This document shows positions 23,760-50,626 of a stretch of DNA of 60,397 bases, piece after piece (positions within the stretch are counted from its first letter, which is position 1; the number at the start of each line of letters is the position of its first letter). Source of the stretch: Desulfobacteraceae bacterium. GTDB lineage: Bacteria > Desulfobacterota > Desulfobacteria > Desulfobacterales > Desulfosalsimonadaceae. The translations under genes were made by a program, and so were the position numbers. The notes under the pieces were generated by a model. That model did not search any database. It saw only the letters and a program-made list of their open reading frames with translations, and was not told the origin of the DNA. The stretch is taken from assembly GCA_003597945.1 (NCBI GenBank), contig QZJS01000098.1, forward strand, positions 1-60,397. The letters are read 5' to 3'.

Positions 23760-23879
23760 CTTGCTTTTAAAAGTTGGGCGCATAGATTCTTTTAAAAATT
23801 GAAACAATATGATAAAAGAGTCCGCACCAAACGCAAAGAACCGACCAAAGACCGCATTGTTCTGGAAAAGGAACCTGGA

Positions 23880-25376: not shown

Positions 25377-25837
25377 AACCAAATCCGGAAAAGTTGTTCA
25401 AAGGAAGAATTTGAACAGATTTGTATGGATCGACGACTCCTTTGACCCTGCCGCCGCCTCAACCGGCCTGCCGGAAGAGATCCGAACATCAGCGCCGCTT
25501 TCCCGGCTGAAGAAAACAGTGCGTTCAGCAGGAACCCGCCGTCAACCTAAAAGCATTGAAATTTTATTGAAAATAGTCTACAGGGAACAAAATCGAATCA
25601 GAAGAAACAAGCGGATTTATGCCGTCACCGCTGAAACCATGGATATATCCGAAAAAGACGACATGCTTGGTAGTGTATTCAAAAAAAGCATCGCCTGAAA
25701 AATATAAAGAGCTGATGCTGGTTCTTAAATACGAGCAGATCGGGAAAAGTCTGCGTGCTGAAGGATGAATGATGAATTTTGAATCGGAGACAAGGGCAAA
25801 ATTACCGGGCAGCCGGTTGCCGCTAAAACCCTGGAGG

Positions 25838-26447
25838 GTTCCATTTCGGCATCACTCCGGAGGAGTTGCGCAAACCTCACGAATCCAAGCCGTGTAATCC
25901 CATTATCGCCAATGTTTTCTATCGCGCCGGCATCATCGAACGGTGGGGCACCGGCACGTTGAATATTATAGACTGGTGCAGAAACAACGGAAACCCAGCG
26001 CCGACCTGGTCCGAGCAGGCGGGCTCGGTTTTTGTAACTTTTTCCCCCATTAAGGAGGCGGGAACCAGCCTTGGGGCGGAAGTAAATGGACGCCAACGTA
26101 CAGGGGAAGTCACAAGGGAAGTAACCGGGGAAGCTACTGGGGAAGCTACCGAACAAGTAACCGAACAAGCGACGGGGCAAGTCGAGGCCCATGACGAGGC
26201 CCATGATCTGTCCGAAACGGAATGGGCAATTCTCAAAGCCTGTAGAAGCGCGCCACAAGGCGTTTCAGATCTGTTGATTGTCCTTGGATACAAGACCAGA
26301 ACAGGAAATTTCAAGAAGGCAATGCTGCGCCTTGAGGAATCGTTAAGTCTCTTGGAAAAGACTTTGCCTGACTCGCCCAGGAGTAAAAATCAGAAATATC
26401 GCCTGACCGCAAAAGGCAAGAAAGTGGTCACGACTCGCGATTCATGA
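25838..26447 (+). pseudogene. N-terminally truncated AlbA_2/HATPase_4-type protein (C-terminal half with wHTH)
   Basis: FHFGITPEELRKPHESKPCNPIIANVFYRAGIIERWGTGTLNIIDWCR..., TGEVTREVTGEATGEATEQ repeat linker, wHTH; no AlbA_2 domain upstream. Confidence 0.7.
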
Positions 26448-26458
26448 ATCGCGAGTCG
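26431..26458. repeat. 28-bp perfect palindrome over the stop codon of the upstream ORF
   Basis: cgactcgcgattcatgaatcgcgagtcg is its own reverse complement. Confidence 0.95.
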
Positions 26459-26510
26459 CAGGGTTGAAGATGGCAAGGATTGAAAAGTTGATTGAAATGA
26501 CCCAGCCGGC

Positions 26511-26612
26511 TGGGCTGGATCGACGATGCCTATGTCCTGGCTACACTACCACCAAAATTTCAGAAGAGATCAGCAAAATTCTTGAGATGATCCGCAAGGG
26601 CGAAGGACTCGA
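26511..26612 (+). repeat. chimeric fragment: copy of the 3' part of the DUF1232 gene joined to a copy of the 5' part of the 23.9-kb AlbA_2 gene
   Basis: 26511-26574 resembles 28476-28539; 26575-26612 equals 23898-23935 (aaaattcttgagatgatccgcaagggcgaaggactcga). Confidence 0.85.
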
Positions 26613-26683
26613 AACAAGTAAAACTGACGGTTTTGCATAGATCGACCTTTTTTCAACGAAGAAACTAAAGGAAGAGTGCAGAG

Positions 26684-28059
26684 GTGAAAAAAGCCGACCT
26701 GCTTGCTGAAATCGCCTTGGGTGAAGACAGCACGCGCCAGTTTAAAAAAGATATCCGCAACGGCGAATCGCTGGCTTCGGAGATGGCGGCTTTTGCCAAT
26801 GCCGAGGGCGGAACGATTTTTATCGGAGTGGATGATGACGGCTCAGTTCCGGGCCTTGAGCCGAAGGATGTCGCACGGATCAATCAGCTTATCAGCAATG
26901 CGGCCAGCCAGCTTGTGCGCAGCCCGTTGGCCGTGCAGACGGAAATGTCGCGGTCAGAAAGGCCCGTGTTGTCATCAGGCTCATGGTGCCCAAAGGCCTC
27001 GATAAACCCTATTTCGATAAAAACGGAGTGATCTGGTTCAAGAGCGGTTCGGATAAACGCCGCATCAACTCCAAGGAGGAACTGCGTCGCCTGTTTCAGT
27101 TTTCCGATCAGTTTCATGCCGATGAATATCCCACCCGGGCGGATATCGGCAAACTCGACAAGCTGCGCTTTCGTGATTTCCTCCGCGATTTCTACAAACA
27201 GGACTTCCCCGACGATCCCGACGAGTTAAAACGTCTGCTGCGGAATATGAACCTGGCCGATGAAGCGGGTTTTCTGTCGCTGGCCGGCGTGCTTCTGTTT
27301 GCCGAACGACCAGAATGGATCAAACCACAGTTTGTCATCAAGGCCATCCGCTATCCGGGCAACGACATTCATGTCAGCGATTATCTGGACACGGAGGATT
27401 TTGATGGACCGCTGCGCCGGATGTTTGACAATGCCCTGGCCTTTGTCATGCGCAATCTGCATAAAATTCAGGCCGGCCGCGGGGTGAATGCGCCGGGGCT
27501 GCCTGAAATTCCAGAGTCGGTTTTTGAAGAACTTCTGGTAAACGCGTTGATCCACCGCGACTATCTGGTCAGTGCGCCCATCCGGCTGTTTATTTTTGAT
27601 AACCGGATCGAGATCATCAGCCCCGGCCATCTGCCCAACAACCTCACGGTTGAACGGATTCGAGCCGGAATTTCAAATATCCGCAATCCGATTCTGGTTT
27701 CCTTTGTGGCCAAAGGGCTTCTACCCTATCACGGGCTGGGTTCGGGCATCAAACGCGCATTGGAGGCCTGGCCCGACATCGAGTTTACCGACGATCGGGA
27801 CGGATGCCAGTTCACCGTAACGGTTCATCGAAAGAAGGCGAAAGGTTCGGGGAAAAGTTCGGGGAAAACAGAAAATCAAATCATTGTTCTGCTCTCAGAC
27901 AGACCGAACCTGACGATTCCGGAACTGTCTGAAACCCTCAATATTACTACGCGAGCGGTTGAAAAACAAATTTCAAAATTACGCATGGACGGCCGCCTGC
28001 GCCGCATCGGCCCCGCCAAAGGCGGACACTGGGAAATCATTGAGAAGGATGAGAAGTAA
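26684..28059 (+). pseudogene. AlbA_2-type ATP-binding protein split by a 1-nt frameshift near 26942
   Basis: MKKADLLAEIALGEDSTRQFKKDIRNGESLASEMAAFANAEGGTIFIGVDDDG in frame 1; continues as VIRLMVPKGLDKPYFDKNGVIWFKSGSDKRR in a second frame; adding one A at ggaaatg restores one ORF. Confidence 0.8.
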
Positions 28060-28567: not shown

Positions 28568-28597
28568 CAGGGGTTGCTCCAGATAAAGGAGGCTGTT

Positions 28598-29515
28598 TTG
28601 GCCAAGCACGATTACGACCGGGCCATGTATCGCATCACCACGATTGTTTCCCGCCTGAACATCGGGGAACGGCTGTTTCTGCCGGATCTGGCAAGTGAAT
28701 TCGGCGTCAGCCTCCGCACCATCCAGAAAGATTTTTCCACCCGGCTGGCCGTATTTCCCATCATCCGAAACAGCGACGGCAGTTATTCCTTCATGGGCCG
28801 CTATCGCCTCAAAGGCACGGCCAATGCCGAGGAAAGCATTGTGGTGGAACTGATGGGCGCCCTGGCGGAACAGGTCAATGCCGGTTACGCCGAAGTCACC
28901 CGCCGGCTCTTAAGCGGAGCGGGCTATTCCAACCGCACGTTTGCCATTCATCTGAAATTCGAGGATATATCCGCCCACCTGGATACGTTTTACCTGCTCA
29001 AACAGACCATCCAGTTCCAGCAGAAAATCCGTTTCAGCTACACCACCCGGCATGGGAAAAAAGACAGCTATCTGGTCGATCCCTACCGCCTGGGCAATTT
29101 CGATGGGTTCTGGTATCTCATCGCCATGGATAACAAGGCCGGCATTCTCAAAACGTTTTACCTGAAAAGCATCGAGAATATCCGGGTCTCGCCGGAAAAT
29201 TACGCCATTGATTCGGCCCTGGAAAAAGAAATTGAAGAGACCTACGGCAACCTGACCACCGCCTGGTTCAAGGAAGAAAAGCAGAACGTCAACCTGCTGG
29301 CCGCGGGCGCAGCGCGCCGCTACATCATGCGCAATCCGGGTCCTCAGATAGCGATCATCAAGGATGCCCCGGATGGCCTGCATCTGCAAATGACCTATCA
29401 CCGGGATGTTGAAGTGCTCTATTTCGTCAAACACTGGCTGCCGGATATCCGGATCATCGGCAACCCGCATCTCAAAAAGATGCTGATGGATCAGATTAAA
29501 AATTATTCCGGGTAA
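28598..29515 (+). CDS. WYL-domain transcriptional regulator
   Basis: N-terminal HTH FLPDLASEFGVSLRTIQKDFSTRL; WYL core KIRFSYTTRHGKKDSYLVDPYRLGNFDGFWYLIAMD; TTG start assumed. Confidence 0.85.
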   Translation: MAKHDYDRAMYRITTIVSRLNIGERLFLPDLASEFGVSLRTIQKDFSTRLAVFPIIRNSDGSYSFMGRYRLKGTANAEESIVVELMGALAEQVNAGYAEVTRRLLSGAGYSNRTFAIHLKFEDISAHLDTFYLLKQTIQFQQKIRFSYTTRHGKKDSYLVDPYRLGNFDGFWYLIAMDNKAGILKTFYLKSIENIRVSPENYAIDSALEKEIEETYGNLTTAWFKEEKQNVNLLAAGAARRYIMRNPGPQIAIIKDAPDGLHLQMTYHRDVEVLYFVKHWLPDIRIIGNPHLKKMLMDQIKNYSG

Positions 29516-30188: not shown

Positions 30189-31205
30189 ATGGTGAGGCTG
30201 TTGATATTTATGGATGAAGAGATTTTAAGGGCTGATCCCCATTCAAAAAGAAAAAAAATTGCGATAGCGATATTTGTCGGCGTTATAGGTCTTCTGGCAA
30301 TTGTTGCATTTCTGATTTTCGGCTTATTGGTAAAAGACTATATCATCTTTGATGCAAATAGAATTCAGGCTGCCAATGAATTAACTATGCTTAATTCTCG
30401 TATTAAAGAGATGGAAAATCGACTTTATGAGCATCGGGCCTCCTTATCATCGCAACTGAAAACAGGAAAAGATCAGCTTCAAGAATTGGATGAACTCATT
30501 CATAAACGCAATGCTCAAATAGACTCCCAACAAAGATTGATTGCCGAGTACGATGAATTAATGAAAAAAATCGACTTGGCAAAGAAGGAATACCAAAGCA
30601 CGCTGGGAGATATAAAGTTACTTCGTGAGAGTGCGGCAAAGGAAATGGGTGTTATTACAGCACTCAAAAAGGAAAACGAAATACTTGAAGCCCAAAAGTC
30701 GGCGCTTAATAAAGAATTGGCGGAACTCGATAAGGCCAAAAAAAGTAGCAATCAGTCCATTGAAGACCTTGCTCGTCAACTAAGGGACCTGAGTGGAAAA
30801 GAATCCATCGCCAGGGCCGAATTTTCAGAATTACAGGAAGCTTTGACAGAAACTTCCGCGAATCTGGCTATACAAAACAATAAGATTGAGAGCGCGCGAA
30901 GATCTCTATCCATATTGGAACAAGAAATCAGCGAAATGAAATTGAATCATGACACTCTCTCGGCTCAAATTATCCTTGCCCAGGAAACCTTCACAACCAG
31001 AACGGCTGATAAGGAAAAATTGATTGCGACAGTTTCTGGACTGACACAAAAAAAAATAGAACTCTCCTCGGAAATTGCATTGCTGGAAGAACGTAAGCTT
31101 GGAATGGAATCCCAAACAAAGGCATTGGATATCAAGATTAAACAAACCAACGAGCGCCTGCAGGCAATAAGTCAGAAAGTTGAGACGGATAAGGCCAACG
31201 ATTAA
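30189..31205 (+). CDS. single-TM, long coiled-coil protein (first gene of putative CoCoNuT-like operon)
   Basis: TM IAIFVGVIGLLAIVAFLIFGLLV followed by ~270 residues of heptad-like coiled coil; 5 nt from the next gene. Confidence 0.75.
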   Translation: MVRLLIFMDEEILRADPHSKRKKIAIAIFVGVIGLLAIVAFLIFGLLVKDYIIFDANRIQAANELTMLNSRIKEMENRLYEHRASLSSQLKTGKDQLQELDELIHKRNAQIDSQQRLIAEYDELMKKIDLAKKEYQSTLGDIKLLRESAAKEMGVITALKKENEILEAQKSALNKELAELDKAKKSSNQSIEDLARQLRDLSGKESIARAEFSELQEALTETSANLAIQNNKIESARRSLSILEQEISEMKLNHDTLSAQIILAQETFTTRTADKEKLIATVSGLTQKKIELSSEIALLEERKLGMESQTKALDIKIKQTNERLQAISQKVETDKAND

Positions 31206-31210
31206 AAAGG

Positions 31211-33145
31211 ATGGTAAACCATTTGAACACGCCAATCTATTTTTATCTTACCGGAATTTCTTTTGTTACAATTTTGGTCATCGTTCTGTGTTTATCTGTT
31301 TACTATTACATCAAGGCAAAAGATATTGCACCCTTCCTTCTGCGCCTTGAAGATTTGCAGAGAAAGATTGCCGAAGCACAAACTACACTTGAGGAGACCA
31401 AAAGGGAGTTACGTGACAAGCAGAACGAAATTGCCAAGGCGGACAGACTGATCGCTGAAGGGAAAATCGCTGAGCAATGGCTGGCCAATAACAGTTCACA
31501 GATTGCGGTTTTACGGATCGAAATTGACAAGCAGAAAGCAAGATTACAAGAGGCCACTGAAAATTATCAAAAACGGCAGGAAGAGTTAAACGAACTGACC
31601 CAACGGGTATCTGACAAGCATGTTGAAATTAATGCCGCGACGGAAATAAAAAACACTTTGGACATCGAAGTTTCTAAATTAACAGCGGATTTAAATTCTA
31701 TTAAGGATTTAATCGCGCAAAAAACAAAACAGGAAAACGAATTAACGGACAGTATCACAAAACTTCAAAGTGCCAAAAACCAATGGGAGGCGAAAGTCCG
31801 GGATTTGATAAATCAAGCCAAGTTGCTTGAAAAACAGTTGGAAGAAAACACATCTAATCTTGATCAAATTAAAGATGAACTCGGTAAGACAAAGAAAATA
31901 TTGGCAACAACAGAAGGTCAAGCGCTGGCTGCTGAAAAAACGCTCGCGCAATTGGCTAAAACTCAGGAAATAGACAAAGACCGCTGGAAGGATTTGGATA
32001 GAAAATTTATTCAGAAATCGCAACCTTTAAACGCATCAAATTTGGTTGAAAACGACTGGCTGGAGGAGTTCATGGGCTCGTTGCGTCAACACGGGTTTAT
32101 TTTTAATGAGCGGGCTATTCTATCTTTCCATACAGGCTTGAAATGTGCCAAAATTTCCCCCCTGGTTGTCTTGGCAGGGATTTCCGGTACAGGAAAAAGT
32201 CTGTTGCCTGAACTCTATGCCGCCGCTTTGGGCATGCACTTCTTGCCTGTTGCGGTACAGCCGCGGTGGGACAGTCCCCAAGACTTGTTTGGTTTTTATA
32301 ATTACATGGAAGGACGGTATAAGGCGACGGAATTATCCCGCCTATTGTGGCAGTTTGACAAATACAACAATCAAAATGCGAAGCAACTCTATCAGAAGCG
32401 GATGCCCATGAACCTTGTTCTGCTGGATGAAATGAATCTGGCTCGGGTGGAATATTATTTTTCCGATCTGCTAAGCAAACTTGAGATACGCCATGGGCTG
32501 GATCCAGAGAATGATATGAGCAGAATAAAAGCGGAAATCGAGATCGAGTGCAACGCCTCAGCTCAAGATAAGCAGACTCGGCGTTTGTTTGTTGCCCTGA
32601 ATACGCTCTTTATTGGCACGATGAACGAGGATGAAAGCACTCAGACCCTTTCCGACAAAGTAATTGACCGCTCCAATGTCATTCGGTTCGGTCGTCCAAA
32701 GCGACTCGCGGTTACTCCTAGCAAAGAAAGGTTCTTTGAAAAATGGACGCATATAGAAGGCATTACTTTTCAAAATTGGACAGACTGGTGCAAGCCGAAC
32801 CAAGACCTAAGGATTCGAGAAGAACTAAATAAAACATTGTGGGAAATAAATGGGATTTTGGCGGGAGTCCATCGGCCATTCGGCCATCGCGTCAATCAAG
32901 CTATAATACAATATGTTGCCTGCTATCCCGGCGATTATAATAAAGCGCTTGCCGACCAAATCGAGATGAAAATTCTGCCCAAGCTTAACGGGTTAGATAG
33001 CCAAGTAAACGGTTTTGACATTGCAATGACGGCAATCGAAGGTATTATTGGTGGGTTGGATGATAGTGAATTGCATGAGGCATTCAAGGAGTCAAGGGAG
33101 AAAGCCGCTGATTCTTTTTTCAAATGGCGCGGTGTGATGCGATAG
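31211..33145 (+). CDS. TM + coiled-coil + McrB-like AAA GTPase
   Basis: N-terminal TM; coiled coil; LAGISGTGKSLLPELYAAALG, VQPRWDSPQDLFGFYNYMEGRYK, NLVLLDEMNLARVEYYFSDLLSKLE, and McrB-type IGTMNEDES. Confidence 0.9.
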   Translation: MVNHLNTPIYFYLTGISFVTILVIVLCLSVYYYIKAKDIAPFLLRLEDLQRKIAEAQTTLEETKRELRDKQNEIAKADRLIAEGKIAEQWLANNSSQIAVLRIEIDKQKARLQEATENYQKRQEELNELTQRVSDKHVEINAATEIKNTLDIEVSKLTADLNSIKDLIAQKTKQENELTDSITKLQSAKNQWEAKVRDLINQAKLLEKQLEENTSNLDQIKDELGKTKKILATTEGQALAAEKTLAQLAKTQEIDKDRWKDLDRKFIQKSQPLNASNLVENDWLEEFMGSLRQHGFIFNERAILSFHTGLKCAKISPLVVLAGISGTGKSLLPELYAAALGMHFLPVAVQPRWDSPQDLFGFYNYMEGRYKATELSRLLWQFDKYNNQNAKQLYQKRMPMNLVLLDEMNLARVEYYFSDLLSKLEIRHGLDPENDMSRIKAEIEIECNASAQDKQTRRLFVALNTLFIGTMNEDESTQTLSDKVIDRSNVIRFGRPKRLAVTPSKERFFEKWTHIEGITFQNWTDWCKPNQDLRIREELNKTLWEINGILAGVHRPFGHRVNQAIIQYVACYPGDYNKALADQIEMKILPKLNGLDSQVNGFDIAMTAIEGIIGGLDDSELHEAFKESREKAADSFFKWRGVMR

Positions 33146-36100
33146 CCATGGACGAACGGAGCGTGATAGAGTTACGGGCATACCTGCGCAAGGTTGATCC
33201 CGAGCCTGATGCTGCGATTGACTCTTTTCGGGAACAGGTAGATATTATATTCAAACTGCGCATTGAGGCCGAAAAAAACTTTAAGAACAATCCCCATATT
33301 GCTAAAAGCAAACGAAAAGCACTGCCGCTTGGATGGCCTGCTATTACTCAAATACTTAATCCTAGTACAATGGCGCCGCCGGAAAAACTCATAACACAGA
33401 TTTCACGGGAATGTTTTAACGAGACAGACGAAATCATTCGCAATATGCGAAAGATTCTGACACGCGAACGGGAAAAGGTTTCGTTGGGATTGGTTCAGCA
33501 GGTTGATCCCCATTGTCTGCGTTGGTTGTCCAAGCAGCCTGGTTATAATGCGATGGAAAAGGCTGGTGCAAAGCAGCGGATTCTTGCAATAGTCAGGCGT
33601 GAGAATTTTAACACCATAGAAAATCGAATTTTTAAAGATTACCTGAAACGAACCAAACAAGAGGCAAGATTCTATTTGCGCGTTAATGGTAAAAAATTTC
33701 CAAACCATGAAGCAATCAAACGGGTAGCGAGACTTGAACGTCTCTGTGAAGAAGGGTTTCGCGATCCAATAATGGAAGGAATCACTGCGATTCAGGAACT
33801 TCCGATTCCAAATTATGTTTTGCGCCAAGAACGGAGATATTCGAAAATTTGGAAGGCCTATTGCGATCTTATCCGCCAGTCCGACATCGCGGAAAAGTTA
33901 TGGTTACGGCGCACAGAATTAGCGGTAACTCTGGAAAAACTTCGCTTAGAAGCCAAGGTACATGCTGATCCGCGCGCAAAATACCACAGTCCTATCTGGT
34001 TTAATTACTTGGACGGAAAGCACAATTTGCTGGAAAAGCCTTTTTATAAAAATGAGTTAATGAGTGCGGCCCACCAGAAATTCTTATCTTTCAAAAGAAA
34101 CCAAAATAAAGAGCCCGTCTTTCACCAGGATAATGTCATCATTGACTTGACCGGCAAGGAACCTTCTCGCGATTTGTTGATTTACGGCTGCCATGAAAAT
34201 GCCAAACCTTATCTTCAGGATTATAAAAAACCCTCCATCGAGAATATCAAGGCCGGCGAGCATTTTTTTCTGAACGACCTCTTGCACAAACATGACAAAA
34301 AAAACAGTCTTCTGCATTCGAGACTTCGTGATTACTTTGAACAGCTTTTCGCCCACATCGGCGGAAAAAATTGGCTTATACTTGTACCGGACGATTGGGA
34401 TGCGCTCTGGCAAGAAACGATTATAAAATCTATACCGCTTCCACGAAATAAGGTCTTCCTTTTATGGCGAAGCGTCGCAGCGGTCATCGGGATCATCAGC
34501 CATTTAGAAGATCCCCGTGAGAACGACACTGTCGTCATTGTTGATATTCAACAAGGCGGGATTGTCAGCATGAGTAAGCTGACGCTTGCGCTATGTGAAA
34601 ATGGGAATAGCCTGATTCCTCAAAGAAAGTCCTTTATCCGCCATCCCCAAAGCTATGCAAAGATAGTACTTTCTGTTAACGGTCCCATTCCAAAGCGAGA
34701 TGCTTTTCTGTATGGGAAAAAGTCGGATTATATATTGTCCCCGGCTGACATAACTGTAATAAATGCCTTTGCGCACAGGGCGAAGCATGTTGTCATTGTA
34801 AACAACAGTGGAATCAAAATCCCGATTTCGAAATGGCATATCACGGCAGGGGAACTGCTTGAAAGAGGCGCAAAACAGTTTATTACCCAAAGGGACAGGG
34901 GCCAGATTGCCTATTATGATGAACTGGAGGCGCTGTCACTTGTTGTCCAAACTGAGGATGAACGGATTCTTGCTAAGCCGCTGGTCGAAGCCGATGAAAA
35001 GTCGCCGGGAGGAAAAGAGATTGTCACGAAAACCATCAAGCGGGCGGCTGTCCTCAAGCGCGAGTCAGATTACGTAGATCTTGTTTTGTGCATGGGAGAG
35101 GCAACGCCCGACACATCGCTAAAAATCAAACGCCATGAATTTAATAAAAGCCTTATTGAAGACCATGCGATTGATTTGTCCGCAAGAATGACGCCTGGAC
35201 AGGGAATGGCAGTGGTAACGGTCACGTCCGACTTCTTGCGAAAACCGATTGAGCTGGATTTCCTCCATGGCATGACGGACAAAGACCCGAAGGGCCGAGC
35301 GCTAACGATGTCATCCCTCGAAAATGAGATGGAACGCAGTTTCCCTCCTGATTCACCGGATGTCATAGCCGATGATTTATTGTGGGCAGGTGTAAGGGAT
35401 CAAGTGGATGCTTACATGAAGGATCTGATATCGCCGGATGGGAGTTGGTTTGCAAAAGCACAAAGAATCTACCTCGACGGAGCGCCTCTGCCCAATCGGA
35501 TAAGTCCATTGGAACGACTGCGCAGGAAAAATGTATTCGGCAATGCTCCCGCACACCGTTTTCCATCGTTAGTTCAAGGAATTTTTGGTTTACTTGGGCA
35601 ACAGTTTAACTTTGAAGCCCTCTTCCAAAAGTTGGCCAGCGGGTATAATGGGCCTGATCATGCAGCCGTCATCCGGCTTATTGCCTGGACTTATGCATCA
35701 AATGAACCGGCTTTTGATCACATTCGGCGGCAGACGGTGAAACATGTTTTTGAATATGCGCAGGGTGCTACCTCGATAGCACCACTTCATCAGGAGATGA
35801 CGATTTGCGCGAATCTATGCGTCTCGCGAAATGAATGGCGTACATGCCTGAAAGCAATTGAGTATAGAGTAAAAGATTACAATAATAATGTTAGTCGAGA
35901 TTTTTATTTGCTTTATAATTTGCTGCAGTTCCATCCGTCGATTCTCAAAGACACCGGTTATTTTCAAAATGACGGCTGTTGGAAGATCGTGAAGCATATC
36001 CCACACTGGTATCACACTCATCGCCAAGGCACTGTCGCTATCGGATATATTCTGAAAAGCATTTTGTATTTTCTCAGATGCCGTCGATTTGACGGAAAGA

Positions 36101-36252
36101 AATTCCTCACCAGAGAATACGACCCCGAGCACTATGCAATTATCGCTGAATGCCTTAACTATTCGGTGCATCGGTCCCATGAGAAATTGCGACGGCTGGT
36201 CATCGAATATCTGAACAATAAAGGCACCATTGACGGATTACCCGTGGACTAA
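33124..36252 (+). CDS. DUF2357/McrC-N-like protein with apparent Hsp70-like (ASKHA) region
   Basis: McrC/DUF2357-like signature NFNTIENRIFKDYLKRT; later WLILVPDDWDALWQETIIKSI...VVIVDIQQGGIVSMSKLTL and GAKQFITQRDRGQIAYYDELEALSLVV, Hsp70-like; overlaps previous gene. Confidence 0.65.
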   Translation: MARCDAIAMDERSVIELRAYLRKVDPEPDAAIDSFREQVDIIFKLRIEAEKNFKNNPHIAKSKRKALPLGWPAITQILNPSTMAPPEKLITQISRECFNETDEIIRNMRKILTREREKVSLGLVQQVDPHCLRWLSKQPGYNAMEKAGAKQRILAIVRRENFNTIENRIFKDYLKRTKQEARFYLRVNGKKFPNHEAIKRVARLERLCEEGFRDPIMEGITAIQELPIPNYVLRQERRYSKIWKAYCDLIRQSDIAEKLWLRRTELAVTLEKLRLEAKVHADPRAKYHSPIWFNYLDGKHNLLEKPFYKNELMSAAHQKFLSFKRNQNKEPVFHQDNVIIDLTGKEPSRDLLIYGCHENAKPYLQDYKKPSIENIKAGEHFFLNDLLHKHDKKNSLLHSRLRDYFEQLFAHIGGKNWLILVPDDWDALWQETIIKSIPLPRNKVFLLWRSVAAVIGIISHLEDPRENDTVVIVDIQQGGIVSMSKLTLALCENGNSLIPQRKSFIRHPQSYAKIVLSVNGPIPKRDAFLYGKKSDYILSPADITVINAFAHRAKHVVIVNNSGIKIPISKWHITAGELLERGAKQFITQRDRGQIAYYDELEALSLVVQTEDERILAKPLVEADEKSPGGKEIVTKTIKRAAVLKRESDYVDLVLCMGEATPDTSLKIKRHEFNKSLIEDHAIDLSARMTPGQGMAVVTVTSDFLRKPIELDFLHGMTDKDPKGRALTMSSLENEMERSFPPDSPDVIADDLLWAGVRDQVDAYMKDLISPDGSWFAKAQRIYLDGAPLPNRISPLERLRRKNVFGNAPAHRFPSLVQGIFGLLGQQFNFEALFQKLASGYNGPDHAAVIRLIAWTYASNEPAFDHIRRQTVKHVFEYAQGATSIAPLHQEMTICANLCVSRNEWRTCLKAIEYRVKDYNNNVSRDFYLLYNLLQFHPSILKDTGYFQNDGCWKIVKHIPHWYHTHRQGTVAIGYILKSILYFLRCRRFDGKKFLTREYDPEHYAIIAECLNYSVHRSHEKLRRLVIEYLNNKGTIDGLPVD

Positions 36253-36254
36253 TT

Positions 36255-39200
36255 ATGAAACTTGAAGAATTCCTTGGCATCTGGCAGCTCACGGCAAAGA
36301 AACGGAGTGTTTCCATTGGCTATACCGCGTTATGCCGAGAGATTGAAAAGCTTGATCCGGGGGAAATTGGCTATAAGGTGATTAGGCGTTTGGAGGACGA
36401 GGGTTTCATTTCAACCTTGCCCAACGGCCACCGTATTCTGACTGATTTAGGTCTTTCCAAAAGAATTCCTTTACCCGTCCGCCCAGTTGTAATTGAAAAA
36501 AGCAATGAACAGAACTGGGCAAGGTTCAGAAGGCTCTGTGTATATTATGCGGATTGCGTTACCCAGTCGGAAAAAACGCAAGAATATCTTTTTCAGAAGG
36601 ATTTGAACACCAAATATCTACTACCCCGATTGCCGATTGACTGGTTAAGCAATGACGATTCAATGCGACTTGCTTTCAGCAATTTGGAACGTCCGGCGGT
36701 TAATCGCATTAAAAGCCGCAGTGATGACGCCGAAGATATCTATATTGGATATCCGCTAAGCGCGTTTCACGATTCGCGCAATCAAATGGTATTTTCACCG
36801 ATCCTGCTCTTCCCGGCGGATGTGACTTTTGACACGACAAGCCTTGAAGTGACAATCCGGCGCGATGAAATCGACATTAACCGAACATGGCTGGAATACA
36901 ATGTTCCCCGTGACGACCAAAAGGACGTTCTTACAAGTATCTGTTTCTCTGCGGGAGATAAAACCGGGCTTTTGGATGCGGAGGTCGCTGTCCGGTATCT
37001 GGCCAATCGATTTAATGCCGATTTGGTCCCGAATCATCTTGATTACAATGTGACTCACCGCCCCAGAGGCATTGTCAACTCCGCCACATTGTTTGTTGGC
37101 AATCCATTGAAATACAGCAAGACGTTGAAAAAGGAACTGCGTGAAATCAGCAATCAACCGCCACATGTATTGGATCAGACAGCACTATCATATGTGTTCC
37201 GAGATCCTCCACTGGAAAATCAATATGAAATGAACCCATATATCGTTCCACTTGATTTTCTGGAAATGCCGTCCAACTACGAACAGCACGAAGCACTTAA
37301 ACAGGCCCTGAACCTGCCGGTTTCCAAAGTGACCGGACCGCCAGGAACCGGCAAATCGCAGGTTGCGGTGAACCTTATCGCGAACTTGGCTTTTTATGGC
37401 CAATCAGCACTGTTCACCAGCAAGAACCACAAGGCAATTCATGCGATTATTCAAAGGGCGGAATCTATAATGCCGAAATTGCCCTTGATGCAATTCTGCA
37501 CAACGGAAGACGGCTCCGCAGGCGCGGTTTGGTCAAACTTGCCTATAGATTTTGTGATTGCGCAAAGCGAGGTTATCAAGCAACAAAAGGGTTTCACGGA
37601 TGATTTTCCTCTCATGCGAAAATTTGAAGACTCGTTGGAAAATTTGTGTGATTTTGAGATGTTGTTTGCCGAAATTAATGATGCTCGCTTGGCGTTGCAG
37701 AAAATTCAGGCAAAGTATGATCAAATTTTTCCGAATATTTCGGTGCCGCTGGATACTTTATCCGTGGATTATTGCCAGCAACTTGAGAAACTATCGAACC
37801 GGATCAGCCTGGATCAAGACACGCGAACTTGGATACAAAGGGTTTTTGATTTTCTGTTTCTGCGCCAATATCGAGCGCATAATGCGGAGGTGGAGTTAAG
37901 AAAAATATTGCCGGAAATTTCAGCAGCAGCAAAGAATCCGGAGACATTGCGTAAACGCGTATTACGGTTATGTGGAGATATCGCTGATTATTTGGCGATC
38001 AAGGATGAAGAGGCTTTGCTTTATGAAAAAACATTGACACTACCGGAGGATGACCTTAAACGACTGGCGGAAGAAATAGCTTTCCGGCGTAAGCATCTGG
38101 GTGATATATTTTTAGCTAAACGCGTTTTTGCGATAAAAGACGTCCCCGATAATATTCGACAACAACTCAAAGATGCCTCGCAACGAATCGCCCGCCAAAA
38201 TCTTCCGTTCTTAGCACAAGTACTTCCGGTTTCCAGTATTGAAGAGGCCCAAGATTCATTCAAGCAGTTTGCAAATTTTTTCCCTGCGTGGGCGACGACA
38301 TTGTTGTCGTTGTCAAAAGCATCACCATGCGTGGCCGGGCTGTTCGAAAGAGTGATTATCGATGAAGCCTCCCAGTGCGAAATCCCTCCAATCATTCCCG
38401 CCCTCTATCGCGCTAAAGGCATGACAGTTATCGGTGACCCTGCTCAATTTCCGCCAGTTATTACCATGCGGGAAGCCCGCCATGCCCACATCCGATTCTT
38501 TAAGCATAAATTAACCGATTTGTCGGACGAACGATTTGACTTCATGAAACATAATGCCTTTGATGTCGTTGCAACTCATCCTCTGATGCTTCGCGAACAT
38601 TTCCGCTGTCACGCGGACATCGCTGATTATTTCAACGAAGAATATTACACAGACAAATTAAAGGTAAGAACTCATCCGGGAAGCCTCAAGTTTCCACGCA
38701 ATATGGGATTTCGCAGGGCGCTGGAATGGCGAAACGTTCATGATTCAATGGAAGATGAGATCGCTGAGGTTAAAAAATTAATGCAAGACCTGCGGCAAAA
38801 TCAATATGATGGAAAGATTGGTGTTATCTCTCCATTCCGTAAAGTGGCGGATAGGCTAAAGCAAGAACTTTATAATTACCAGCCCCTGCTTGATGTGGAA
38901 AAAGATGTTAATACCGTGAACGGGTTTCAAGGAGGCGAAAGAGATTTAATCGTCTTTGTCCTGGGGATCACGAGTAAATTGACAAGAGGCGAGGATTGGT
39001 ATGCCGTGGCGGAGGAAAACAGGTACATCTATAATGTAGCCGTGAGCCGTGCGCGGGCCTGTTTAATTGTTATTGGTGACCGGGAAAAGGCCCGTCAATC
39101 AAAATCTTCGGCCTTGCGGAATTTGGCAAAAGATATTGAACAGCGCCCACGAAAAACTTTATCACAATCACCTGGTGAAGAGATGATGTACAAAGCTCTT

Positions 39201-39467
39201 TGCGAGGCGGGCTTCGATCCCAAACAGCAATATCCTTTAGTCGGACGGTATCTCGATTTAGCGCTTGTGGATGAAAAAATTGATATTGAGGTTGATGGAG
39301 AAGGTTTTCATCTCAACAAATTTGGCGAACGTAAGCATGATGATATTTACCGTGACCTGCAAGTAACTTCAGTCGGATGGCGTGTTTGCAGGTTTTGGTA
39401 TCGGGAAGTCCGCGATAATCTTTCTGATTGTATTGAAAAAGTACAACAGACAGTAAAAAATCACTGA
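36255..39467 (+). CDS. SF1 (UPF1-like) helicase with C-terminal Vsr/DUF559-like nuclease domain
   Basis: VTGPPGTGKSQVAVNLI, RVIIDEASQCEIPPIIPALYRAKGMTVIGDPAQFPPV, VNTVNGFQGGERDLIV, YNVAVSRARACLIVIGD; C-term SPGEEMMYKALCEAGF...GRYLDLALVDEKIDIEVDGEGFHL. Confidence 0.9.
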   Translation: MKLEEFLGIWQLTAKKRSVSIGYTALCREIEKLDPGEIGYKVIRRLEDEGFISTLPNGHRILTDLGLSKRIPLPVRPVVIEKSNEQNWARFRRLCVYYADCVTQSEKTQEYLFQKDLNTKYLLPRLPIDWLSNDDSMRLAFSNLERPAVNRIKSRSDDAEDIYIGYPLSAFHDSRNQMVFSPILLFPADVTFDTTSLEVTIRRDEIDINRTWLEYNVPRDDQKDVLTSICFSAGDKTGLLDAEVAVRYLANRFNADLVPNHLDYNVTHRPRGIVNSATLFVGNPLKYSKTLKKELREISNQPPHVLDQTALSYVFRDPPLENQYEMNPYIVPLDFLEMPSNYEQHEALKQALNLPVSKVTGPPGTGKSQVAVNLIANLAFYGQSALFTSKNHKAIHAIIQRAESIMPKLPLMQFCTTEDGSAGAVWSNLPIDFVIAQSEVIKQQKGFTDDFPLMRKFEDSLENLCDFEMLFAEINDARLALQKIQAKYDQIFPNISVPLDTLSVDYCQQLEKLSNRISLDQDTRTWIQRVFDFLFLRQYRAHNAEVELRKILPEISAAAKNPETLRKRVLRLCGDIADYLAIKDEEALLYEKTLTLPEDDLKRLAEEIAFRRKHLGDIFLAKRVFAIKDVPDNIRQQLKDASQRIARQNLPFLAQVLPVSSIEEAQDSFKQFANFFPAWATTLLSLSKASPCVAGLFERVIIDEASQCEIPPIIPALYRAKGMTVIGDPAQFPPVITMREARHAHIRFFKHKLTDLSDERFDFMKHNAFDVVATHPLMLREHFRCHADIADYFNEEYYTDKLKVRTHPGSLKFPRNMGFRRALEWRNVHDSMEDEIAEVKKLMQDLRQNQYDGKIGVISPFRKVADRLKQELYNYQPLLDVEKDVNTVNGFQGGERDLIVFVLGITSKLTRGEDWYAVAEENRYIYNVAVSRARACLIVIGDREKARQSKSSALRNLAKDIEQRPRKTLSQSPGEEMMYKALCEAGFDPKQQYPLVGRYLDLALVDEKIDIEVDGEGFHLNKFGERKHDDIYRDLQVTSVGWRVCRFWYREVRDNLSDCIEKVQQTVKNH

Positions 39468-39696: not shown

Positions 39697-40302
39697 ATGA
39701 AGAAAATGACTGCCATTGATTATTACCGTACCCACTGGGCGCAGTACCACGACAAAACTATCAATATTGACCCGGCCGGTTTTCTCTCCGGGTTTGTCAG
39801 GCATCTTCGGCATGGCGATCACGTTCTCGACGTCGGGTGCGGTTCCGGTCGGGATCTGCTGTGGCTCAAACAGCGGGGATTTTCCGTTACCGGATTCGAC
39901 GCGTCGCCGGGATTGGCGGAACTGGCCCGCCGTCATGCCGGCTGTCTCGTGATCGAAGGTGATTTCGAAACCTTTGATTTCCAGGCTCTGAGCGTTGACG
40001 CCGTCCTGATGTCCGGTTCTTTGGTTCATCTGCCTCACGACCGCCTTGCCCCGGCGCTGTCAAATATAGTAAACGCTCTCCGGAAAACCCCGGAAGCAAG
40101 GGTTTATCTGTCTCTCAAGGAAGGCGAAGGTTTATCGCGCCATACCCATAACCGTATCTATTACCTCTGGCAGGATCAGGATATCCGGTCCATCTTTGCC
40201 GATCTCGGATTGACGGTTTTAGAGACTTCCCGTTCGGAATCCGCCAGGGGAACCGGCGAAATCTGGCTTGGCTATATACTGGCGCGGGATAAGAATCCAT
40301 GA
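39697..40302 (+). CDS. class I SAM-dependent methyltransferase (no DNA-MTase catalytic motif seen)
   Basis: HVLDVGCGSGRDLLWLKQRGFSVTGFDASPGLAELARRH; 4-nt ATGA overlap with next gene. Confidence 0.85.
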   Translation: MKKMTAIDYYRTHWAQYHDKTINIDPAGFLSGFVRHLRHGDHVLDVGCGSGRDLLWLKQRGFSVTGFDASPGLAELARRHAGCLVIEGDFETFDFQALSVDAVLMSGSLVHLPHDRLAPALSNIVNALRKTPEARVYLSLKEGEGLSRHTHNRIYYLWQDQDIRSIFADLGLTVLETSRSESARGTGEIWLGYILARDKNP

Positions 40303-43300
40303 CAGATGATCTCAAAAACAAGGCCATCATTTATCAGAAGCTGGTGCGGGATCGCATTCCGGAAATTATCCGGAATCAGGGCAAGGCGCCTTATATCCGC
40401 AAAATTGAAGGCCCTGCGCTTTGCAAAGCGATCAGTGAAAAAGTGATCGAAGAAGCATTTGAGCTTTATACCGAACTGCGAGGCGAAAACCGGAATGCCG
40501 TGCTCAAGGAATCGGCCGATCTGCTGGAAATCGTGCTGGCGGCGCTTGAGGTGCATGGGTTTACCCTTGATGATCTGCTGGCCCATGCGGAAATCCGGCG
40601 TCAGGAACGCGGCGGGTTTGCGGAGCGCATTTTTCTCGATCAGGTGGGCGGCGGCGAACTCTGCGAAATCGAATTTCAGAAATATCCGGCTTTCGTTTTT
40701 AATCCGTTTGCCGGCGGCAAGCTGATTCACATTATTCGAACCGAACTGGCGCACAGCACGTCTGCCTGGATCGCATCGGCCTTTTATTCGCCGGGGGCCA
40801 CCAATCTACTGCTGGCGGAGATGACGAAATTTTTAAAGGCCGGCGGTTCGATGAAACTGCTGCTGTCGACAATGGGGAACATTACAAAACCAGAATATCT
40901 TGAGCATCTGATAGCGCAGGTGCCCGAACAGTGCGTCAAGGTATTTCATCCCCCGGATCTGGCCTTTGATAACATCCCTCCGCATTTTCATGTCAAAGCA
41001 TGGCTGTTTGAGCATACGGACGGGCAGGGCGCCATGATTATCGGTTCATCCAACCTGACCCGGGGCGGCCTGGTCAACAATATCGAGTGGAATTATTTTT
41101 CTCCGCGTGAAATCAACATCATCTATGATCGCCGCGAATCTCCCTTTCAATCCGCCGTAACCGAATTTGAGCGCATCTGGGAAAATGAGTCCACGGCGGT
41201 TACCGGCGAATTTTTAGCGGCCTATCGCCGCCGCCGGCCGGTGCTCAGCGACTGGGCCGTGCCGGATCAAGAGACGCCGGAACTTTTTAACCTGCAGGAA
41301 GAATATGGAAAAGCGGTTTCTTTTGCGGCGCCCAATGACGCGCAGAAAGAAGCCCTGGAAAATCTGGCGGAACAGCGCCGCCAGGGTGCAGCCCGGGCCG
41401 CGGTGGTTGCGGCCACGGGACTTGGCAAAACCTATCTGGCGGCCTTTGACTATCAGCGGAGTAACTGCCGGAGTCTTTTGTTTATCGCCCATCGCGAAGA
41501 TATTTTACGCAAAGCCCGGGATACGTTTCGTCATGTGACGGGCGATCCGTCTTTCGGCGCGATGCTGGGCCGGGGGAATACAGAGACCAGCGGCTCCGAG
41601 GCGGTGTTTGCCATGATTCAGACCCTCAGCCGGGCCCGTCATCTGGACGGCTTTCTCGCCAGAGATTTCGAATATATCGTCATTGATGAATTCCATCATG
41701 CCGAGGCCGCCAGTTATCAGCGCATTTTATCCCATTTTCAGCCGAAATTCCTGCTGGGCCTGACCGCCACGCCGGAACGAATGGACGGCCGGAGCGTGCT
41801 GGCTTATTGTGATTACAATGTGGCCTATGAAGTCCGGGTGCTCGAAGCCGTCAACCGGGGGTGGCTCGTGCCGTTTCAGTATTTTGCCATCTACGATGAA
41901 ACCGATTATGAGCAGATCCCCTGGCGGGGCACTTTTTATGACGAAGCCGCCCTGGATCAGGCCCTAAAGAATGACACCCGCACGGCCATTGCCGCGGCCA
42001 ATCTGAAAAAATACCTGCCGTCAACCGGTAAAATCAAGGCCCTGGCGTTCTGCAGTTCGGTCAGCCACGCCCGCTATACCGCGGAAAAACTGACCAGGGA
42101 TCACCAGCTTCCGGCGGTTGCCCTCTGGGGTGAAACGCCGGATGATGACCGGCATAATGCCATGGATCGTCTGCAAGACGAATCCGATGCACTGAACGTG
42201 ATCTGCACGGTGGATCTGTTTAACGAAGGCACGGACATCCCCGCGTTAAGTCATGTGCTGTTTTTGCGGCCGACCCAGTCCTTTACGCTGTTTCTCCAGC
42301 AGTTGGGCCGGGGCCTGCGGAAACATCCGGCCAAGGATTTTCTGGTGGTTCTCGATTTTGTCGGAAACTTCCGGAAATCCCATATCGCGCCCCTGGCCCT
42401 TTGCGGATACAGCTCTCTGGATTCGTTTGAAAATTTGAAACCGGCGATAGTGCGGGAAACGCTTGAGCAACGGCTTCCGGACGGGTGTTATGTCAGCGCG
42501 GATATCGAGGTTCAGCGGCTGTGGGATGCCGAGGTGCGGCAGATCATGGATAAACATCTGCCGCTGGCCGATCGCCTCAAGCTGGTTTATCAGGACATCA
42601 AGCAGGATCTTGGACGGGAAACCCCGCTTGAACTGTCGGATATGCTGTCCAATGCCAGTGGTGTTGATCCGTATTTGTATCTTAAAACCTTCGGAAGCTG
42701 GCTTATCGCCAAAAAGGAATGCGAAAACGGCAGGCTCTCCGACAAGGAAGCGCAATGGCTGAACACGCCGGGAGATTATCTGCTCCGCCACATTGAGACG
42801 GGCCTGAATCCGGTCAAATCATACAAAATGGTGGTTATCCTGGCCCTGCTCAAGCTGGAGGGGACGACCTGGAAAGCGGACGATATTGCGCGGGAATTTC
42901 TTGGGCATTATCTGGCGCATCCGGATCAGATCGCCGATTTTGATGCCCTGGCAAAATCACCGGAACCTGAAAAATTTCGGATCTCTGATGTCGTGGCGCA
43001 CCTCAAGCGTATGCCCCTGGATAAAATGAGCAATGCGGAAACCGACTGTTTTATTCTCGACAGCGCAGCCAATACTTTTCAGCTCAAACCCGAATATGTG
43101 CCTTACTGGCAGGACCCGTTTTTCCGGGCCCTGGTCAAGGACCGGGCGGAATTTGTGCTGGCCCGGTATTTCCTGCGCAAGCGCATGCAGGATACCATCT
43201 ATTTCAGCGAATCCATATTTTCAGAAGGCTTTCCCGTGAGCCGCAGGCTTGTGGAAGCATGTTGTGAAATCCCCCCGTCGCCGGGTGAAAAGCGCCCGCT

Positions 43301-43499
43301 AACCATGCGGATTGATAAACGGAACTTCAACGCGGATCTGGTGCGGGACGCGGTGGGAAATTATAAAATCGCCTATACTGAGGATAGCCCTATTGCCGGG
43401 TTTCTCCGAAAAACGCTGAGTCCCGCACCGGAAAAAGATGCAAAAATATTCCGGCTGCAGGCTGAAAACGATTATTTACGGCTTGCCGTGATTCAATAA
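40299..43499 (+). CDS. MazG/PRA-PH-like NTP pyrophosphohydrolase - PLD nuclease - SF2 DEAD/DEAH helicase fusion
   Basis: YQKLVRDRIPEIIRNQG...EKVIEEAFELY...ESADLLEIVLAAL; HFHVKAWLFEHTDGQGAMIIGSSNLTRGG (PLD); AATGLGKTYLAAF, VIDEFHHAEAASY, LTATPERMDG, QQLGRGLRKHPAKDFLVVLDFVGN. Confidence 0.88.
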   Translation: MTDDLKNKAIIYQKLVRDRIPEIIRNQGKAPYIRKIEGPALCKAISEKVIEEAFELYTELRGENRNAVLKESADLLEIVLAALEVHGFTLDDLLAHAEIRRQERGGFAERIFLDQVGGGELCEIEFQKYPAFVFNPFAGGKLIHIIRTELAHSTSAWIASAFYSPGATNLLLAEMTKFLKAGGSMKLLLSTMGNITKPEYLEHLIAQVPEQCVKVFHPPDLAFDNIPPHFHVKAWLFEHTDGQGAMIIGSSNLTRGGLVNNIEWNYFSPREINIIYDRRESPFQSAVTEFERIWENESTAVTGEFLAAYRRRRPVLSDWAVPDQETPELFNLQEEYGKAVSFAAPNDAQKEALENLAEQRRQGAARAAVVAATGLGKTYLAAFDYQRSNCRSLLFIAHREDILRKARDTFRHVTGDPSFGAMLGRGNTETSGSEAVFAMIQTLSRARHLDGFLARDFEYIVIDEFHHAEAASYQRILSHFQPKFLLGLTATPERMDGRSVLAYCDYNVAYEVRVLEAVNRGWLVPFQYFAIYDETDYEQIPWRGTFYDEAALDQALKNDTRTAIAAANLKKYLPSTGKIKALAFCSSVSHARYTAEKLTRDHQLPAVALWGETPDDDRHNAMDRLQDESDALNVICTVDLFNEGTDIPALSHVLFLRPTQSFTLFLQQLGRGLRKHPAKDFLVVLDFVGNFRKSHIAPLALCGYSSLDSFENLKPAIVRETLEQRLPDGCYVSADIEVQRLWDAEVRQIMDKHLPLADRLKLVYQDIKQDLGRETPLELSDMLSNASGVDPYLYLKTFGSWLIAKKECENGRLSDKEAQWLNTPGDYLLRHIETGLNPVKSYKMVVILALLKLEGTTWKADDIAREFLGHYLAHPDQIADFDALAKSPEPEKFRISDVVAHLKRMPLDKMSNAETDCFILDSAANTFQLKPEYVPYWQDPFFRALVKDRAEFVLARYFLRKRMQDTIYFSESIFSEGFPVSRRLVEACCEIPPSPGEKRPLTMRIDKRNFNADLVRDAVGNYKIAYTEDSPIAGFLRKTLSPAPEKDAKIFRLQAENDYLRLAVIQ

Positions 43500-43552: not shown

Positions 43553-45112
43553 GTGACTTTTTTCATGTGCAGTCAATTGAAAGCTGATTATCCCATCCCA
43601 TTTCCGCGCTCTTATTGGGTTATCCCCGGTGTTTTTCTGGCCGGGGAGTTTCCCGGATCAAAAGCCGCCGGTAAGGCCCGTCAAAAACTTAAGCGTCTAT
43701 ATGATGCCGGCATCCGGCATGTGATCAATCTCATGGAGCCGGATGAAATCGATCACGACGGCAATCCGTTTGATTCCTATAAAAATGATTTAACAGAAAT
43801 CGCCGAAAAACAAGACGACATTATTTCGTTCAGCCGGTATCCCATCAAAGACCTGCATATTCCGGATTCGGATCAGATGACGGCGATCCTGGATGCCATT
43901 GATGCGGCAATTGAGGCGCATCAGCCGGTTTATGTGCATTGCTGGGGCGGGATCGGCCGGACCGGCACGGTGGTGGGCTGTTTTCTGATCCGGCATGGGC
44001 TGGCCACCAGCCGCAACGTGCTGGATGTGATCCATGGGCTTCGGAAAAATGACCCGAAAAATTATCGCACATCTCCGGAGACATCCGTCCAGGTAAAGTT
44101 TGTCGCCTCATGGCAAAAACATGATGCGGCTCGCCATATCCGGCTGGATCGGTATCTTGGGTGCCTGGCGGGCCTTGCGGCAGGAGATGCGGTGGGGACC
44201 ACCCTTGAATTCAAACTTCCGGGTTCGTTTTCCCCCATTGATGATATGATCGGCGGCGGTCCTTTTGGCTTAAAGCCCGGCCAATGGACCGATGATACGT
44301 CCATGGCCCTGTGTCTGGCGGACAGCCTGATTCAATGCAACGGATTTGACGCGGCGGATCAGATGAAGCGTTATTGCCGGTGGCGGGATCAGGGGTATCT
44401 GAGCAGCATCGGGGAGTGTTTTGATATCGGCGGCACGGTGTCTTCCGCATTGTCGCGGTTTCAGGAAACCGGCGATCCGTTTGCCGGCTCCACCCATGAG
44501 CGCTCCGCCGGCAACGGCAGCATTATGCGGCTGGCGCCGGTGCCGCTGTTTTATGGCGGCCATCCGGAAACCGCCATACAGATGAGCGCGGAAAGCTCGA
44601 AAACGACACATGGCGCCCGGACCTGCATTGATGCCTGCCGGTATTTGAGCGGGTTGATCATCGGCGCGTTAACCGGCGAGTCCAGAGAAACGCTTCTGGG
44701 GCCGCGATACGCGCCGGTAAAAAATCTCTGGGGGGCTGATCCCCTGTGTCCTGAGATCGATGAAATCGCCCGGGGGTCATTTAAAACAAAGAATCCTCCG
44801 GAAATCAAAGGAACCGGTTATGTGGTCCAATCCCTTGAGGCCGCGCTCTGGGCGTTTTACCATTCCTCATGTTTTGAAGACGGCTGCCTGATGGCGGTGA
44901 ACCTGGGCGATGACGCCGACACCACCGGGGCGGTCTACGGCCAGCTTGCCGGCGCGTTTTATGGTTTTAAAAGTATTCCCCCCAAATGGCGGGATATGAT
45001 TGCCCATAAAGACATGATTGCTGATTTTGCGGTGAAATTGTGGCTTTCAACAAACGCTGAAAATAGGTTTTTGAGTGAAAATAAGGCGGCGAGCGGCTCA
45101 ATGCATTCGTAA
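43553..45112 (+). CDS. dual-specificity-type protein phosphatase fused to ADP-ribosylglycohydrolase
   Basis: [17 protein letters not shown] (Cx5R) then [71 protein letters not shown]; start may be downstream, near 43559. Confidence 0.88.
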
Positions 45113-46200: not shown

Positions 46201-46268
46201 TTACCGGTCTGGATAAATTTGCCGGCCATTTTGCCGGCTGTCAGGATCACTATATCGTTAATTGTTAA
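46197..46268 (+). pseudogene. truncated nucleotidyltransferase (AbiEii-like) toxin, N-terminal 23 residues only
   Basis: ATGA overlap with previous gene; translation MITGLDKFAGHFAGCQDHYIVNC-stop resembles the N-terminus of AbiEii-type nucleotidyltransferases. Confidence 0.6.
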
Positions 46269-46281
46269 TACTGGATTCCAC

Positions 46282-50392: not shown

Positions 50393-50513
50393 TGGCAGCG
50401 CAAAACGCTCAATTTCCGCGTTGCGCTCATCTCTCGTCGCTCAACGTGCGAAAAGCACGCCTCGCTCCTCGAGAATCGCGGCGCCTTGAACTTGAACGTT
50501 TTGCGCTGCCATC
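50391..50513. repeat. MITE-like interspersed palindromic element (element B), intra-operonic
   Basis: 17-bp perfect inverted repeat gatggcagcgcaaaacg / cgttttgcgctgccatc; central hairpin cgtgc-gaaaa-gcacg at 50445-50459. Confidence 0.8.
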
Positions 50514-50626
50514 TGGAATATAGCGTACAAGGCTGGGAAAAAGGAAAACTCCGTGAAAAGTCGTTCGAAGCGAGAAGACCGACTTTTTAAGGACACACAA
50601 CCGAGTAACGGAAAACAGGAGTTTGC

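Follow-up and report, generated by a model that had tools for sequence, protein, structure and literature searches.

A predicted Type III-B-like CoCoNuT operon with a fused CnuC–CnuD gene in a Desulfobacteraceae bacterium

CoCoNuT (coiled-coil nuclease tandem) systems were described by Bell et al. (2024; PMC11090510) as the coiled-coil-bearing NxD branch of McrB. In that account, Type III-B systems have separate CnuA, CnuC and CnuD proteins, a CnuH that carries a Vsr-like nuclease as a fused domain, and no TerY-P; Type III-A systems have CnuC fused to CnuD and a HEPN protein, CnuE, and it is for Type III-A only that a CnuC–CnuD fusion is described there. Here, a stretch of 60,397 nucleotides from a Desulfobacteraceae bacterium (assembly GCA_003597945.1, contig QZJS01000098.1; hereafter the window) was analysed, in which four genes at 30189–39467 form an operon. 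A preliminary description of this DNA had noted its resemblance to a CoCoNuT; the family held, and the placement was sharpened, the operon being best called a III-B-like lineage with a CnuC–CnuD fusion, a variant of Type III whose arrangement fits none of the published subtypes.

Operon composition and comparison with described systems

The coordinates of the open reading frames (ORFs) agree with the tight same-strand, four-gene operon first proposed: four plus-strand ORFs of 338, 644, 1042 and 1070 amino acids (aa) together span 30189–39467, with spacings of 5, −22 and 2 nt.

30189–31205, + strand: cnuA-like gene, 338 aa, with a single predicted N-terminal transmembrane (TM) helix and a coiled coil onward to the C-terminus
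31211–33145, + strand: cnuB gene, 644 aa, with a predicted N-terminal TM helix, a coiled coil and an McrB-type NxD GTPase
33124–36252, + strand: cnuCD fusion gene, 1042 aa
36255–39467, + strand: cnuH gene, 1070 aa, with a UPF1-like superfamily 1 (SF1) helicase and a C-terminal Vsr/MTES_1575-type nuclease

Homologues of these genes share one operon in other bacteria too, and since the gene set recurs in this way, its arrangement in the window is not due to chance.

The McrB-type GTPase expected in gene 2 was recognised by two intact Walker motifs (Walker B, LLDEMN, at residue 404) and by its NxD signature.

32177–32200, + strand: CnuB Walker A GISGTGKS, residues 323–330, conserved in homologues
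32618–32638, + strand: CnuB NxD GTPase signature TMNEDES, residues 470–476

Pfam reported AAA_5 in CnuB, and the PADLOC candidate family PDC-M26A matched it with E 1.9e-33, as it also matched the Rhizobium III-B CnuB. A PDB sequence search with CnuB and CnuCD returned nothing meaningful. Grouping of the GTPase with McrB and the CoCoNuTs had been set in advance as the test of the assignment. In a GTPase tree that included McrB relatives, CnuB fell within a 31-row Type III CoCoNuT clade (support 97/97), apart from E. coli McrB, which formed the outside group with four other McrB relatives; Type I/II CoCoNuTs were not knowingly among the rows, and CoCoPALM sequences were not among them. It is the NxD motif, not NxxD, together with this clade that underlies the assignment, and judged by sequence the operon is a true Type III CoCoNuT of the McrBC-derived Type IV restriction family. 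The hallmarks of CoCoNuTs are present, namely a coiled coil fused to an McrB-like GTPase, and a DUF2357 protein without active nuclease alongside another nuclease in the operon.

For gene 4, both the UPF1-like helicase and the C-terminal Vsr/DUF559-like nuclease of the preliminary description were recovered by Pfam (AAA_11/AAA_12 and MTES_1575/DUF559) and by Foldseek. The AlphaFold2 (AF2) model of CnuH (predicted local distance difference test, pLDDT, 85.0; predicted template-modelling score, pTM, 0.79) matched SETX, UPF1, IGHMBP2 and Dna2; the alignments used for structure prediction consisted of sequences of the window and of the loci scanned.

37335–37358, + strand: CnuH Walker A GPPGTGKS, residues 361–368
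37545–38270, + strand: CnuH helical insertion after Walker A, residues 431–672, from AF2 secondary structure
39171–39461, + strand: CnuH PD-(D/E)xK-type (Vsr/DUF559/MTES_1575) nuclease, residues 973–1069, MTES_1575 E 7.5e-10

PMC11090510 lists a helical insertion after Walker A among the features of Type II/III CnuH. The nuclease residues D1001, E1012, D1014 and H1019 each reach 90% conservation or more among 29 CnuH homologues, and the predicted catalytic residues of the GTPase, helicase and nuclease are all retained in the operon. In the model, the CnuH N-terminus (helices 3–9, 23–33 and 39–48, strands 52–54 and 60–62) appears compatible with a winged helix, and a wHTH at this end of CnuH is described for Type III-B. 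PADLOC matches of CnuH to Mokosh and Hhe were rejected as reflecting a shared SF1 helicase core.

The closest described relatives are the Type III-B systems, represented by two Rhizobium loci (L003, L004), which likewise have CnuA, a coiled-coil NxD CnuB, a DUF2357 CnuC, an Hsp70-like CnuD and CnuH-Vsr, and lack TerY-P. The window has the Vsr-like nuclease on CnuH and a separate, domain-poor coiled-coil CnuA (here with an extra TM helix). It differs in that CnuC and CnuD come from one 1042-aa gene instead of separate genes, in gene order (A-B-CD-H versus H-A-B-C-D in Rhizobium), in the inactive CnuC nuclease part, which seems to have shrunk to a short low-confidence linker, and in occurrence, Type III-B being described as primarily alphaproteobacterial whereas the window's lineage is found in Verrucomicrobiota and others.

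With Type III-A, the operon shares a DUF2357-Hsp70-HEAT fusion and a CnuC without active nuclease (hhalign E 1e-18, covering DUF2357 and the first part of the nucleotide-binding domain, NBD). However, the CnuB of Type III-A lies in another clade, and those systems have a HEPN CnuE, an SmpB-like/RTL CnuH and TerY-P genes. A CnuE with two HEPN domains was found neither in the operon nor in neighbouring genes, and no TerY-P triad (VWA/PP2C/kinase; frequent but not invariable in III-A) lies near the operon; a VWA gene at 58504 is paired with a MoxR ATPase and is not part of such a triad. Type III-C (L005, L065) also has an N-terminal TM helix on its NxD coiled-coil CnuB, and a published Hsp70-like CnuD, but its CnuC and CnuD are separate, its nuclease is a phospholipase D (PLD) protein and not a Vsr fusion, and its CnuH is very divergent. 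CoCoPALM systems, compared by their published description only, have TM and coiled-coil segments fused to an NxD McrB GTPase; unlike the window, they are linked to pilus-assembly signal peptidases, and CnuH, CnuD and Vsr nuclease are not described there.

The CnuC–CnuD fusion, its phylogeny and its distribution

Gene 3 had been described as DUF2357/McrC-N-like with Hsp70-like segments, and both parts could be substantiated. DUF2357 was found by Pfam with E 2.4e-9. The Hsp70 relationship, for which a sequence-profile search gave no match, was seen with the AF2 model of CnuCD (pLDDT 84.6; residues 307–334 of low confidence): all 29 of its PDB matches with E ≤ 0.001 in Foldseek (E 1.3e-8 to 1.7e-4) belong to the Hsp70 family, DnaK included.

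33160–34167, + strand: CnuC part, residues 13–348, DUF2357 strongest over 68–280, homologous to the separate CnuC of L012–L018
34156–36249, + strand: CnuD part, residues 345–1042, homologous to the separate CnuD genes of L012–L018

Within the CnuD part, an Hsp70-like NBD (about 337–600) is followed by a β substrate-binding domain (about 604–712) and HEAT-like helices (about 830–1030). In hhalign comparisons, residues 13–348 aligned with the sister group's split CnuC at E 3.5e-67, and residues 345–1041 with its split CnuD at E 1.9e-78; against III-B CnuC and CnuD, the values were 4.6e-50 and 1.1e-24. As the two halves match separate, adjoining genes of relatives, gene 3 is a genuine CnuC–CnuD fusion with its boundary near residue 345. 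No nuclease domain was found in gene 3 by Pfam or in the AF2 model; the approximately 65 residues (281–345, partly of low pLDDT) between DUF2357 and the Hsp70 module appear, judged by length, too short for a PD-(D/E)xK domain such as the inactivated one kept in III-B CnuC.

Relatives were collected by plasmid and genome searches, and their operon contents were read by phmmer. Besides the two Rhizobium loci, reference loci were III-C of Synechocystis pSYSX (L005) and Microcystis (L065), and III-A of Caballeronia (L006), Phytobacter (L007) and Photobacterium (L092); L008, a Type III-B system from another member of the host's order, was also included. Most of the 80 genome loci gathered (L009–L088) share the gene set of the window, as do the Rhizobium loci.

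A GTPase tree placed the window inside a 14-member clade (support 100/99) and, within it, in a subclade of seven rows (96/91; the window, L009, L010, L011, L019, L020 and L021), in which CnuC and CnuD share a single ORF in all complete genes, that of L020 being truncated at a contig edge. In the other half of the clade (L012–L018), CnuC and CnuD are two adjacent genes. Throughout the clade the helicase gene, where present, comes last. A CnuH tree made by a quick method recovered the same clade with a Shimodaira–Hasegawa-like approximate likelihood ratio test (SH-aLRT) value of 100 and the same subgroup with 99; since both trees place the window alike, the clade has independent support. The closest CnuB, with 53% identity, is that of L009 from a Verrucomicrobia bacterium, where no CnuH was found after the cnuCD gene.

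Relatives within the clade are mostly from Verrucomicrobiota/Kiritimatiellota. In the host's phylum, eight of 395 genomes carried any relative of the CnuC part, the full-length fused form occurring only in the window's genome, as one copy of the operon; in the phylum of L010, to which L009 apparently also belongs, 13 of 388 genomes had a relative, with fused and split forms both represented. The low GC content noted at the outset was confirmed at 44.2% for the operon versus 54.6% for the remainder of the window, the range in 163 other stretches of 9.3 kb being 51.7–59.1%. The lack of another fused gene among the 395 phylum genomes and the low GC content point to horizontal transfer of the operon into the host, a direction that we infer.

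Fusion of CnuC and CnuD in the window's group is likely, but not certain, to be independent of the fusion in III-A, because the window's clade holds both fused and split forms, a single clade forced on the fused group and III-A was marginally rejected (approximately unbiased test, p-AU 0.045), and two state changes are needed. It is unlikely, in our estimate, that the operon is a Type III-B CoCoNuT of the ordinary, published kind whose fusion is trivial and functionally meaningless. Every part is homologous to III-B parts, and because relatives already have abutting or overlapping genes for the separate CnuC and CnuD, loss of a stop codon and a matching frame would suffice. Yet a supported subclade (96/91) spanning Verrucomicrobiota/Kiritimatiellota and the host carries the fusion as a fixed trait; the fusion parallels that of III-A, and relative to the split forms the CnuC part has lost about 75 aa at its tail and the CnuD part 30 aa at its start.

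Type III-B-like operons among L009–L088 were found in Planctomycetota, Verrucomicrobiota, Thermodesulfobacteriota and others, a range wider than the mainly alphaproteobacterial one given in PMC11090510. The cnuH gene stands first in several planctomycete III-B operons (L028, L030, L034, L045, L056, L067) and last in those of Verrucomicrobia L027, L053 and L060, implying that gene order varies by lineage. Viral contigs searched with CnuB and CnuCD yielded no relatives.

Membrane helices and proposed mode of action

The TM helix and coiled coil proposed for each of genes 1 and 2 were supported by hydropathy and by heptad periodicity over shuffles (z = 3.7 for CnuA, with no Pro in 278 residues; z = 4.8 for CnuB residues 40–275, with 2 Pro in 236 residues).

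30264–30320, + strand: CnuA predicted TM segment, residues 26–44, Kyte–Doolittle 3.13
31247–31303, + strand: CnuB predicted TM segment, residues 13–31, Kyte–Doolittle 2.43

SMC-like profiles match the CnuB coiled coil; the matches of CnuA were of coiled-coil type only, with no other recognisable domain, and its weak phmmer matches were to the gene that precedes cnuB in L009 and L011. Matches of CnuA and CnuB to JetC/LmuB were rejected as generic coiled coil.

An N-terminal TM helix was predicted in 79 of the 82 Type III-B/C CnuB proteins with a complete start, and 78 of the 79 TM-bearing ones have an excess of K+R on its C-terminal side, a charge distribution by which the coil and GTPase of CnuB should be cytoplasmic. 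The III-A CnuB proteins of L006 and L007 have no TM helix. At most loci a TM-bearing ORF lies directly upstream of cnuB; the set of upstream ORFs (72/72 with TM) was picked for having TM and thus provides no statistic. In the main text of PMC11090510, TM helices of CoCoNuT core proteins are unmentioned.

Of the ZorAB-like membrane sensor suggested initially, the two predicted membrane coiled-coil proteins stand; no ZorA/ZorB family matched in the PADLOC scan. Zorya (ZorAB-ZorC/D) and Shield (ShdA) resemble the operon by analogy only, in that a membrane helix and a long coiled coil are coupled to helicase/nuclease effectors; McrB-type GTPases and DUF2357/Hsp70 proteins are not known from either.

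Our computations cover homology, the order of domains, the conservation of catalytic residues, TM prediction and phylogeny; from these we infer membrane tethering in the cell, complex formation, docking of CnuCD, a ligand, activation, a substrate and defence itself. The best explanation as a whole, which we hold to be probable with moderate confidence, is a III-B-like CoCoNuT with a CnuCD fusion that provides membrane-held, GTP-licensed helicase-nuclease defence. The N-terminal helix would anchor CnuB in the inner membrane, leaving its coiled coil and GTPase cytoplasmic, and a second coiled-coil protein, CnuA, would be membrane-held as well. In the manner of McrC on McrB, CnuCD would use its DUF2357 part to dock onto the GTPase ring of CnuB, while its degenerate Hsp70-like module may engage an infection-specific ligand (nucleic acid or protein). 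A GTP-driven rearrangement would then license CnuH, whose helicase would feed nucleic acid into its own Vsr-type nuclease, so that the phage genome or transcripts would be destroyed close to the membrane; host RNA would be a target of last resort. With two predicted membrane parts, the system may act where viruses inject DNA.

The same membrane parts could belong to a membrane- or envelope-stress device, in which the GTPase and coiled coils would monitor the membrane and the nuclease would serve elsewhere, e.g., in exclusion of plasmids or transformed DNA. FtsB-like TM/coiled-coil fusions described for the related CoCoPALM systems (PMC11090510) are in line with such a role; however, the operon has the gene set and phylogeny of a restriction-derived family, and patchy occurrence (a relative of the CnuC part in 8/395 phylum genomes) with cross-phylum transfer is typical of defence, making this reading very improbable.

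RNA-targeting, abortive action is a possibility to be taken seriously, although we rate it as less than probable. Here, the Hsp70-like CnuD and UPF1-like CnuH would recognise stalled translation or transcripts that are viral or aberrant, RNA would be cleaved and the cell stopped, and the membrane anchor would serve assembly or regulation only. Such targeting has been predicted for Types III-B/C from the Hsp70-like CnuD (PMC11090510), and the best fold matches of CnuH are the RNA helicases SETX, UPF1 and IGHMBP2. Against this, UPF1-family relatives such as Dna2, also matched by CnuH, act on DNA; a HEPN protein or TerY-P module is absent in and beside the operon, and no cold-shock domain is visible in the CnuCD model. 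Moreover, Vsr/DUF559-type nucleases usually act on DNA. Because the sole recognisable nuclease is of this kind, and HEPN, SmpB-like and YTH domains were not seen, we lean slightly, at close to even, towards DNA entering at the membrane over RNA as the target of the window's subtype. The published RNA prediction rests largely on domains that the operon lacks, which makes DNA at least equally likely.

Several points weigh against membrane-held helicase-nuclease defence as proposed. All TM predictions derive from hydropathy, and the topology of CnuA is ambiguous (mean K+R of 2.96 on the N-side versus 2.58 on the C-side), so that its coil could even be periplasmic; a fixed topology was considered and for this reason not adopted. 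Hsp70 was matched at the level of the fold, where global TM-scores are low (0.12–0.23 of the query) owing to the long, multi-domain CnuCD chain, and by eye the ATP motifs of the module look degenerate. The host genome assembly comprises 137 contigs and is 88% complete, and the literature searched yielded no experiment testing a CoCoNuT whose GTPase is active.

Genomic setting and meaning for the family

The operon lies in an apparent defence island of about 23.8–47.8 kb; the last of the entries below lies outside it:

23799–28059: Schlafen AlbA_2/HATPase_c_4/HTH gene cluster
28574–29515, + strand: WYL-domain regulator, 0.7 kb upstream of the operon
40299–43499: PRA-PH/MazG-like N-terminus, PLD domain and superfamily 2 (SF2) helicase (PADLOC mREase_IV, 1.2e-87)
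43553–45112: dual-specificity phosphatase fused to a Tri1-like ADP-ribosylglycohydrolase
46262–47764: DUF4062 and HATPase_c_4 fusion, right edge of the island
48635–56883: methylmalonyl-CoA-mutase-like protein, MmgE/PrpD, radical S-adenosylmethionine (SAM) activase and pyruvate formate-lyase (PFL)-like glycyl radical enzyme

In the Schlafen-type cluster, one gene is broken into two overlapping frames (26684–27031 and 26983–28059) and 25866–26447 is the C-terminal remnant of another, so that the cluster looks decayed. The type IV-like PLD-helicase and the WYL regulator are defence-like and were counted for the defence reading. As a conserved operon partner the WYL regulator was rejected, its relatives being absent beside other related operons; L037, L044 and L051 have relatives of the PLD-helicase protein close to their Type III-B operons. 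The genes at 48635–56883 are a possible anaerobic catabolic cluster. Promoter and terminator scans gave no signal above shuffles, no signs of att sites were found, repeats within and around the operon were short two- or three-copy matches, and the window contains no tRNA.

For the family, we tentatively suggest, at somewhat below even confidence, that Types III-B and III-C in their entirety are membrane-anchored McrBC machines that detect or attack nucleic acid arriving at the inner membrane, with the window as a further subtype in which CnuC and CnuD were fused independently of III-A. The compact four-gene form, with McrC and Hsp70-like parts in one chain and helicase and nuclease in another, is convenient for reconstitution, and the conserved membrane helix of III-B/C CnuB makes the site of action and the sensed signal testable. 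A second, apparently independent CnuC–CnuD fusion suggests that both proteins act as one unit.

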